This document shows positions 10,326 to 13,225 of a stretch of DNA of 35,510 nucleotides, piece by piece. A model generated the notes under the pieces. It was given only the letters and a program-made list of their open reading frames with translations, was not told the origin of the DNA and made no database searches. The position numbers were made by a program, and so were the translations under genes. Location of the stretch: positions 1-35,510 of the forward strand of contig JACSSA010000076.1 in assembly GCA_014879465.1 (NCBI GenBank), given 5' to 3'. Each line of letters begins with the position of its first letter. Position 1 is the first letter of the stretch. Origin of the DNA: Rhodothermales bacterium. Its GTDB lineage: Bacteria; Bacteroidota; Rhodothermia; Rhodothermales; BA12.

Positions 10326-11732
10326 TCAGCGGCGGACGCCGAGGCGCGTCGTCGTAGCGCGGTCGGTGGCGATGTGCAGCACATACGCACCCGGCGCGAG
10401 CGAGCGCGTGTCGAGCGTCAAGGTGCCTTCGCCGCCAGCGCGCCCGTTGAACAGCAGCGCCGCGCGTCGCCCGATCAGATCGAACGCCTCCACGCGCACG
10501 CGCAGGCCCGGGGCGAGCGTCGCCCGCAGCGTGGCGGTTTCGGCGAACGGATTGGGGTAGAGCGTGCCCATCGCCTCGTCCAGCCGCCGATCGTCGTCGG
10601 AAGCAAGCGGTTCGCCCACGGCAAACGTGCGGGTTAGGAATTGATCTTTGTAGGTGATCTCCACGCGCCATTGCCCGGTCGGTGCGTCGGCGGGAAGGTA
10701 GCGGGTGTAGTACCAGTGCGTGCTGCGTCCGCCGCTGGACGGCGCGTGCGTCCATTCCGACATCGGCGTGCCGTCGGAGTGTCGCACCGTGGCGGGTTGG
10801 CCGTCGGGGCCGATCACGCGCCAGCGAATCTCGTCGCCCGCGGCTTGATCGCGGAAGTAGGCGGAGAAGACGATTGCCTCGTTGGGGGCAAACGACCGTT
10901 TTTCGTTGGGCTGCTCCGGGTTGGGGCAGGTGCGCACCACCGGCGCGGCGCTGCCGGTGCGGACGGCGTGCAGGCGCGGGTTGGAATACGGCTCTTGCGC
11001 GGCCCACCACGACGTTTGGCCGTTGAGCCGGTTGCACGATCCGGCGTAGGGGTCGATGAGGTTGCCGCTGGGATCGTACACTTCGAGGTGCAGGTGCGGC
11101 CCGGTGGATCGCCCGCTCGACCCGACGATGCCCAGAAGCTCGCCCAATGCCACGCGCTCGCCGACGGTTTTGGGCGTGAGCGATCCGCTCTTCATGTGCC
11201 CGTACCACGCCACGCTGCCGTCGTCGTGCTGGACGTACACGGCGTTCCATTGCGCACCCGCCACCGCCGAACAGTTCAGGTCGAAGTTGCCGTCGCGCTT
11301 ACCGACGATCGTGCCGGCAACGGCGGCCACAATTTGCGTTTCGTTTTGCTGCATCCGCAGCACCGGGAAGGGCCACGGCGCAAAGTCGGTGCCTTCGTGC
11401 TGGTCGTAGGTGCGCGTGCCGCAGGCGAAATCTTGCGTGACGCCCGTCGTCCGGTCGTGGTCGTAATGGGCCGAGACCGTGGCGAGGCCGAGGTCGGGAA
11501 TCGACGGCGGCAGCGTGAGCGGCCACGCAAACGCCACGGCCTGCGTCTTGCCCGCCTGCGCACTTGGCTCCGGGATGCCGTGGGCGGTGCGGTTGGCGGC
11601 GAGTTCGGCGCGGATGGCTGCGCGGTCGGCCTCGGTGATCTCGTCGGTGGGGAGCGGAACGTCGCCGCCACCGTCTTGGGCGCGCAGCGGCACGGCAAGA
11701 GCGAGCCATCCCAGAAGCCAAAGTCTACGCAT
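10326..11732 (-). CDS. Secreted M23 (LytM-like) peptidase with type IX secretion sorting domain
   Basis: A 468-residue exported protein. Residues 1-19 form a signal peptide ending LRAQ. The central M23 metallopeptidase domain (about 105-230) has the zinc ligands of the HxxxD motif (HEGTD, H112 and D116) and the GPHLHLEV motif (H213, H215), plus H179 in WYGHM, so it looks catalytically complete. M23 enzymes usually cut glycyl or peptidoglycan cross-links. A middle region (about 240-385) has no family I recognise. The final 80 residues, starting near LYPNPF and ending with RSLAPGAYVLHI and RLGVRR, fit the Por-type (T9SS type A) C-terminal sorting domain, so the protein is probably exported to the cell surface. 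It is transcribed divergently from the RNase-like gene. Substrate is unknown. Confidence 0.92.
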   Translation of the reverse strand: MRRLWLLGWLALAVPLRAQDGGGDVPLPTDEITEADRAAIRAELAANRTAHGIPEPSAQAGKTQAVAFAWPLTLPPSIPDLGLATVSAHYDHDRTTGVTQDFACGTRTYDQHEGTDFAPWPFPVLRMQQNETQIVAAVAGTIVGKRDGNFDLNCSAVAGAQWNAVYVQHDDGSVAWYGHMKSGSLTPKTVGERVALGELLGIVGSSGRSTGPHLHLEVYDPSGNLIDPYAGSCNRLNGQTSWWAAQEPYSNPRLHAVRTGSAAPVVRTCPNPEQPNEKRSFAPNEAIVFSAYFRDQAAGDEIRWRVIGPDGQPATVRHSDGTPMSEWTHAPSSGGRSTHWYYTRYLPADAPTGQWRVEITYKDQFLTRTFAVGEPLASDDDRRLDEAMGTLYPNPFAETATLRATLAPGLRVRVEAFDLIGRRAALLFNGRAGGEGTLTLDTRSLAPGAYVLHIATDRATTTRLGVRR

Positions 11733-11755
11733 ACCGATTCAGGATAACGACCGAC

Positions 11756-11803
11756 AGAAGGTAAGGGCAGGCAGTCATCCAACCGTCAATCCCCTTACCT
11801 TCT
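11756..11803. promoter_or_regulatory. Perfect 12-bp inverted repeat between divergent genes, likely paired promoters or operator
   Basis: AGAAGGTAAGGG (11756-11767) and CCCTTACCTTCT (11792-11803) are exact reverse complements separated by 24 bp. Read outward, each strand shows CCCTTACCTTCT; the right copy ends 24 nt before the plus-strand ATG (11828) and the left copy ends 23 nt before the minus-strand ATG (11732). This symmetry suits two divergent core promoters, or a dimeric regulator's operator spanning both. On the minus strand TTGACG lies 20 bp before TACCTT. Confidence 0.5.
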
Positions 11804-11827
11804 ACCCTTCGACCCACGACCTACTCC

Positions 11828-13225
11828 ATGCTCTCCGTCACCTTCTGGGGCGCGGCCCAAACCGTCACCGGCTCCAAGCACCTGCTCGACATTGCCGGCA
11901 AGCGGCTGCTGCTCGACTGCGGCCTCTTCCAAGGCCCTCGCGACGAGTCCGACCGTCTCAACCACGATTTTGGCTTCGATGCGGCGTCGGTGGATGCCGT
12001 CGTGCTCTCGCACGCGCACATCGACCACATCGGCCTGCTGCCCAAGCTCTGGAAAGAGGGCTTTCGGGGCCGCGTGTACGCCACGCCGGCCACCCGCGAC
12101 CTCGCCGCGCTGATGCTGCTCGATTCGGCACACATCCAAGAGAAGGACGTCGAGTTTGTCAACAAGCACCGCGCGCGCCGGGGCGAGAAGCTTCGCGAGC
12201 CGCTCTACAACGCCGACGACGCCGAGGCCGTGCTCAAACGCTTCGTTTCGGTCGACTACGGCGAGACGTTCGATCCGTTGTCCACGGTTTCCTGCACCTT
12301 CCGCGATGCCGGGCACATTCTCGGATCCGCCACCGTCAACCTTGCCCTGCGCGAGGGTGGGCGCACCGTGCGCCTTGGCTTTACCGGCGACGTGGGCAAC
12401 CCCGACCGCCCCATCCTCCGCGATCCGGAGCCGATGGACGACTGCGACTACCTCATCACCGAGTCCACCTACGGCGGTTCTGTTCACGAGCCGGTTGCGC
12501 CCACCGAAGAGCGCCTCGGCGAACTCATCCGCCGAGCTGCGGATCGGGGCGGCAAGGTCATCATTCCCGCCTTTGCCGTCGGACGGACGCAGGAGATCGT
12601 CCACGCCCTCGACCAGTTGTGGAACGCGGGCAAACTGCCGCGCATCCCCGTGTATGTGGACAGCCCGCTGGCCGTCAACGCCACCGGCGTCTACCTCGCC
12701 CACCCCGAGTGCTTCGACCGAGAGACGCGCGAACACCTTCGCACCGACGGCTCGTTCCTCGGCTTCGACAAGCTCACCTACGTCCGCGAGGCGTCGCAGT
12801 CGAAGGCGCTCAACGACGACCACCAGCCGATGGTGATCATCTCCGCGTCCGGGATGGCCGAGGCCGGGCGGGTGCTGCACCACCTGCGCAACAACATCGA
12901 GGATCCGCGGGCGATGGTGCTGATCGTCGGCTACTGCGCCGAGGGGACGCTGGGCCGCAAGCTGGTGGAGAAGCAGGAGGTGGTGCGCATCTTCGGCGAG
13001 GAGCACCGCCGCAAGGCCGAGGTGGAGGTGATGAACAGCCTGTCGGCCCACGCCGACCAGCCGGGGCTACTCCACCTGCTCACCCAACTCGACGTGCCGC
13101 GTCTGAAGCAGACGTTCCTCGTCCACGGCGAGATCGAGCGGCAGGAGAAGCTGCGCACGGCGCTGGCCGAGCACGGCTTCCAGAACATCGCCATCCCCGC
13201 CCGCGGCGACACCGCCGTGCTGTGA
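11828..13225 (+). CDS. MBL-fold / beta-CASP RNA-processing metallo-hydrolase
   Basis: A 465-residue cytoplasmic metallo-beta-lactamase-fold protein of the YSH1/CPSF73-like group. The zinc motif HAHIDH (H62, H64, D66, H67) is complete. The GFTGDVGN segment follows. The beta-CASP insert is marked by STYGGSVHEP, FAVGRTQEIVHAL and ISASGMAEAGRVLHHL, and the C-terminal RNA-specificity motif by LSAHADQPGLL and FLVHGE. Such enzymes cleave RNA as endo- or 5' exonucleases; the exact substrate cannot be told from sequence. The ATG at 11828 fits the family N terminus (SVTFWGAAQTVTGS). It is monocistronic: divergent from the secreted peptidase and followed by a hairpin shared with the convergent tRNA-Ser. 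Confidence 0.93.
   Translation: MLSVTFWGAAQTVTGSKHLLDIAGKRLLLDCGLFQGPRDESDRLNHDFGFDAASVDAVVLSHAHIDHIGLLPKLWKEGFRGRVYATPATRDLAALMLLDSAHIQEKDVEFVNKHRARRGEKLREPLYNADDAEAVLKRFVSVDYGETFDPLSTVSCTFRDAGHILGSATVNLALREGGRTVRLGFTGDVGNPDRPILRDPEPMDDCDYLITESTYGGSVHEPVAPTEERLGELIRRAADRGGKVIIPAFAVGRTQEIVHALDQLWNAGKLPRIPVYVDSPLAVNATGVYLAHPECFDRETREHLRTDGSFLGFDKLTYVREASQSKALNDDHQPMVIISASGMAEAGRVLHHLRNNIEDPRAMVLIVGYCAEGTLGRKLVEKQEVVRIFGEEHRRKAEVEVMNSLSAHADQPGLLHLLTQLDVPRLKQTFLVHGEIERQEKLRTALAEHGFQNIAIPARGDTAVL

Follow-up and report, generated by a model that had tools for sequence, protein, structure and literature searches.

A mirrored 12-bp repeat between divergent beta-CASP and M23 genes of a Rhodothermales bacterium is probably a pair of back-to-back core promoters

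Two divergently transcribed genes of a Rhodothermales bacterium, encoding a beta-CASP RNase-like protein and an M23 peptidase, are separated by a short region in which the same 12 bases occur twice, in mirror image. Does this repeat join the two genes in one regulatory unit, or does each copy serve only the gene that it precedes? The preliminary description of the locus had named both possibilities: two identical core promoters, or a single operator, bound by a dimer, through which an RNase and a surface hydrolase would be coordinated. We addressed the question in the window, i.e., the whole stretch of 35,510 nucleotides that was analysed, in the organism's own assembly, and in genomes of the same order.

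The repeat and its flanking genes

The mirrored layout, with the repeat ending 24 and 23 nt before two divergent start codons, is exact in the sequence. Two identical copies of CCCTTACCTTCT lie on opposite strands (Table 1), 24 bp apart, within a divergent intergenic region of 95 bp; 24 nt separate the end of the first arm from its start codon (ATG, 11828), and 23 nt separate the end of the second arm from its own (ATG, 11732). Identity between the arms stops at 12 bases, and their centers are 36 bp apart, which corresponds to about 3.4 helical turns at the usual helical pitch. Each arm contains the hexamer TACCTT (11796-11801 on the forward strand, 11763-11758 on the reverse strand), the first T of which, at 11796 and 11763, is found 32 nt before the beta-CASP start codon and 31 nt before the M23 start codon, respectively. 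Taken with the bases that follow, both boxes read TACCTTCT.

The gene assignments made earlier hold as well, both for the RNase-like protein, with its beta-CASP metallo-beta-lactamase fold, and for the M23 peptidase. The N terminus of the peptidase resembles a signal peptide by eye, and its match to a type IX sorting domain (Por_Secre_tail) scores 24.9 bits (E 2.6e-5), just below the Pfam cut-off of 27. The beta-CASP protein also matched the NCBIfam model of type VII CRISPR Cas14 with 415.5 bits, under the 800-bit cut-off. This match looks like family resemblance, since near-full-length beta-CASP orthologues (best match, 59-67% identity) were found in 32 other genomes of the order.

Table 1. 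Features of the divergent region, in window coordinates
Feature	Position	Strand	Basis
Arm 1, CCCTTACCTTCT; TACCTT core is the likely beta-CASP promoter box	11792..11803	+	sequence, genome-wide enrichment and position
Arm 2, CCCTTACCTTCT; TACCTT core is the likely M23 promoter box	11756..11767	-	sequence, genome-wide enrichment and position
24-bp spacer; upstream parts of both promoters would overlap here	11768..11791	.	overlap suggested by geometry
Predicted 5' leader of beta-CASP mRNA, 20 nt, start near 11808	11808..11827	+	box set at -12 to -5 as in F. psychrophilum (available part of PMC9723704)
Predicted 5' leader of M23 mRNA, 19 nt, start near 11751	11733..11751	-	box set at -12 to -5 as in F. 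psychrophilum (available part of PMC9723704)
beta-CASP metallo-beta-lactamase-fold RNase-like protein, 465 aa (Lactamase_B, Beta-Casp, RMMBL)	11828..13225	+	domain matches
M23 peptidase, 468 aa, C-terminal type IX sorting-domain match	10326..11732	-	domain matches

A strand-oriented box upstream of genes throughout the genome

An unguided motif search covered 469 upstream regions in about 710 kb of the organism's own genome (674,755 bases in L150-L209 plus the window) in which genes had been called with a simple codon-based model. The top hexamer was TACCTT, present in 41 regions in the forward and in 17 in the reverse orientation, with 5.6 expected (the two arms studied here are counted in). 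TATCTT came second, with 30 regions forward, 7 reverse, and 4.2 expected. When a narrower upstream interval was ranked by forward versus reverse occurrence, TATCTT was first (25 versus 0) and TACCTT second (26 versus 2). Sites matching TAYCTT lay 20 to 39 nt before the start codon in 45 of 73 cases, and reverse-strand sites in 1 of 26. Between 18 and 45 nt before the start codon, TA(C/T)CTT was found in 47 of the 469 regions and its reverse complement in 1. The beta-CASP arm is one of these 47; the M23 arm is absent from them because the codon-based caller put the M23 start wrongly at 11693. Genome-wide, the box is enriched and strand-oriented at this distance from start codons, and the two arms, at 32 and 31 nt, both fall inside its peak.

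Because TACCTT is the top upstream hexamer and both arms lie in the distance peak, each arm most likely represents a common core promoter box of Bacteroidota-like type. Our main reading, to which we give a probability of about 0.88 on sequence evidence, is that the repeat consists of two distinct core promoters, both of the type that the organism mainly uses, standing back to back in the divergent region. That these two copies work as promoters, where their transcripts start, and which sigma factor they use are what we infer.

The broader pattern TANNTTG stood at promoter distance in 53 of 474 upstream regions and TANNTTTG in 3 of 474, with reverse counts of 8 and 0, respectively; the latter pattern is rarer by chance since it has one more fixed base. 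In an alignment of 68 sites, the base after TAYCTT was G in 46% and T in only 13%. Compared with the sigma-A box of Flavobacterium, the main box of this genome, TAYCTTG(C), appears to be shorter by one base. Favoured flanks in the same sites were C at -2 (60%), G at -1 (53%), and G at +6 (46%).

Bacteroidota sigma-A promoters carry a TTG-type element at -33. No conserved -33/-35 element was seen in the 68 aligned sites, where no column between -45 and -5 exceeded 0.12 bits, and the promoter model is to that extent incomplete. By eye, the 29 nt before the beta-CASP box hold no TTG, and upstream of the M23 box TTG stands 19 and 26 nt from the first T. TTGACA was counted once in each orientation and TATAAT in neither among 474 regions; the counting interval stopped 50 nt before the start codon and misses a -35 position at most sites, so that the TTGACA count was not relied on.

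Five other divergent pairs, of 76 in the sample, carry TANNTT 18 to 50 nt before both starts. One of them (L157, 5967-6061) has an identical 95-bp gap with boxes 37 nt apart and differing flanks; another (L193), with boxes 68 nt apart, was likewise counted as close. The spacing is 212 nt in L171 and 161 nt in L172, and in the remaining pair (L190) the boxes cross instead of facing away.

Relation to known promoters and to relatives

The available part of a study of Flavobacterium psychrophilum (PMC9723704) gives TAnnTTTG as the -7 box of the Bacteroidota sigma-A promoter, maps this box in F. psychrophilum at -12 to -5, and reports a median leader of 24. The same text describes SM5 promoters, with TAnnTTGY, as "most likely" under an alternative sigma factor, and SM4-6 together as a 7% minority of the start sites. 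The boxes found here are similar to the sigma-A promoter as presented there in having TA, two free bases, and TT, at a start-codon distance that gives short leaders. They differ from the sigma-A promoter in that the dominant box is TAYCTTG or TAYCTTC, that no -33 element was seen, and that both arms read TACCTTCT rather than the full TAnnTTTG. We take the arms to work like the sigma-A promoter and do not class them as members. Like SM5 in that account, the TAYCTTGC of this genome is one base shorter than the sigma-A box. However, SM5 is a minority class in F. psychrophilum, whereas the motif described here is the commonest one upstream of genes, and the sites at this locus read TACCTTCT, unlike the TTGY of SM5. 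Among the literature matches listed, the available texts contained no mapped promoter motif for this lineage.

In the mechanism that we propose, each TACCTT would be the melted (-10/-7-like) box for RNA polymerase with the main sigma factor. Transcription would begin about 12 nt past the box's first T and run outward, so that the leaders would measure roughly 20 nt; within the 24-bp spacer, the two promoters would overlap in their upstream parts. Given this overlap and a distance of only 57 bp between the predicted starts (Table 1), two polymerases would probably exclude each other. Such interference would be the sole coupling expected between the two genes. More tentatively, and with more doubt than confidence, we suggest that the main box of the lineage is TAYCTTG(C), one base shorter than TAnnTTTG, the box of other Bacteroidota, and similar to the one that in Flavobacterium appears to go with an alternative sigma factor, and that the locus harbors a closely spaced, mutually exclusive promoter pair. 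A data-derived promoter box for this high-GC lineage would aid promoter annotation, if start-site mapping confirms it.

Relatives appear to back the promoter-box reading in part. We examined 29 of the 32 near-full-length beta-CASP orthologues as loci, and in one of these (L102), which was left out here, the gene was not located by the search motif. TANNTT was present within a 40-nt interval that stops 10 nt short of the start codon in 11 of the other 28 (reverse control, 1) and was lacking at that distance in 17; one locus (L098) carries TACCTTCT at 31 nt. Near-full-length M23 matches, with 40-43% identity, were found in 4 of the 113 other genomes, among the matches listed. By eye, TANNTT precedes the likely start by 42 nt in one of these orthologues (L122) and by 37 nt in another (L123), and none was seen within 50 nt of the start in L121 and L124, the start of L124 being uncertain.

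In larger samples of two relatives, TANNTT was oriented in the same sense, with 29 forward versus 9 reverse in 295 regions of G018 and 42 versus 2 in 242 regions of G045. TACCTT itself was rare there (3 versus 1 and 4 versus 0, respectively), and neither TACCTT nor TATCTT was among the ten top hexamers of these genomes, the nearest being TAGCTT in G045. In 100-kb samples, the counts for TANNTT were 9 versus 1 of 50 in G037, 5 versus 0 of 52 in G018 (part of the larger sample), 5 versus 1 of 54 in G034, which is weak, and 3 versus 4 of 56 in G113, which is not enriched.

Alternative readings of the repeat

The arms could instead be half-sites of one operator at which a dimeric regulator controls both genes. 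This would account for the perfect 12-bp dyad, an inverted repeat of which (loop of at most 60) arose in 1 of 20,000 first-order Markov shuffles of the 95-bp region, and for the extension of identity past the promoter core on both sides. However, the 12-mer has no family of copies. The exact sequence occurs in the 2,969,890-base assembly only in its two copies here, and with at most one mismatch it was found in 8 places (the two arms included) versus 10 for the reversed control pattern, so that the genome does not reuse the full 12-mer as a recurrent word. Within the 35.5-kb window, 6 places matched with at most two mismatches, versus a shuffle mean of 0.85. Of the one-mismatch copies, one (L003) precedes a gene by 98 nt, beyond the distance peak of the box, and those in L004, L005, and L008 lie within called genes.

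The gene context lends an operator no support either. A beta-CASP match was obtained in 111 of 114 genomes of the order, its own included, most of those without a near-full-length orthologue having matches of about 30-35% identity only. The two genes were found together in no other examined locus: the M23 gene in 0 of the 29 beta-CASP loci and the beta-CASP gene in 0 of the 4 M23-orthologue loci (flanks of about 1.5 kb in both sets), and the beta-CASP gene in 0 of 80 M23-hit loci from a contig search (flanks of at most 5 kb). Some flanks are shortened by contig ends, the upstream sequence being, for example, 272 nt in L094 and 134 nt in L096. Among the 80 hits, 64 (L011-L074) match beyond the sorting tail, and 16 (L075-L090) match best on the tail or a short stretch. 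In addition, the arm centers are 36 bp apart, and the cores coincide with promoter boxes, for which no operator is needed. For want of further copies in the assembly and of a conserved gene context in the loci examined, we rejected the operator as quite improbable, and with it the idea that it coordinates the RNase and the hydrolase; the other proposal, two identical core promoters, is the one that the top hexamer and its typical distance uphold. The proposed regulatory link between the two genes gives way to an ordinary explanation, and most likely the repeat is nothing more special than that, rather than a switch joining them.

Could the inverted repeat be a chance product or a leftover, such as a small inverted duplication, with no role? 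Shuffles lead one to expect about 0.4 such repeats per 35.5 kb, and the identity does end at 12 bases. In the 710-kb sample, inverted repeats of at least 12 bp with loops of 3 to 40 numbered 45, versus 6, 8, and 8 in three shuffles. (Of these 45 perfect repeats, 37 are mostly intergenic, and many may be terminators.) Against chance, both cores are the top upstream hexamer of the genome in the correct orientation and at the correct distance, which makes a repeat without a role very improbable.

The two-promoter reading must still account for the identity of the flanks. Among 25 TACCTT sites in promoter position, a run of at least 12 bases was shared by 2 of 300 pairs and one of at least 11 bases by 8 of 300; for TAYCTT (48 sites), at least 12 bases were shared by 9 of 1128 pairs. 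As 2 of 300 TACCTT pairs have 12 or more bases in common, the extra flank identity of the arms amounts to modest luck, with a residual chance of about 0.7% per promoter pair. The arm flanks, CCCT and CT, differ from the favoured ones, so that the consensus leaves part of the identity unexplained, and this is the main residue against two promoters. The repeat is real and not a matter of composition alone, but most of the match between its arms is explained by each being a promoter box.

A single bidirectional promoter as Warman and Grainger use the term, with one pseudo-symmetrical -10 element read in both orientations, would fit the divergent, mirror-symmetric layout, and the locus resembles this type in its divergent transcription and possible polymerase competition. 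According to the available part of the E. coli study (PMC12825309), such promoters share one -10 element, and their starts are most often 18 bp apart, with 10 and 23 also common. In contrast, the locus has two separate boxes with predicted starts 57 bp apart, and on this geometry we rejected the shared element as very improbable. An RNA hairpin or terminator formed by the 12-bp stem was rejected, because each predicted transcript begins beyond the stem and leads away from it, so that neither would contain both arms.

Two further one-mismatch copies of the 12-mer, each at positions 1501-1512 of its locus, precede gene starts by 23 nt (L006) and 35 nt (L007, where the divergent gap measures 141 bp). 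Both of the proteins concerned have an N terminus that resembles a signal peptide, as has the protein downstream of the M23 arm; this may be chance.
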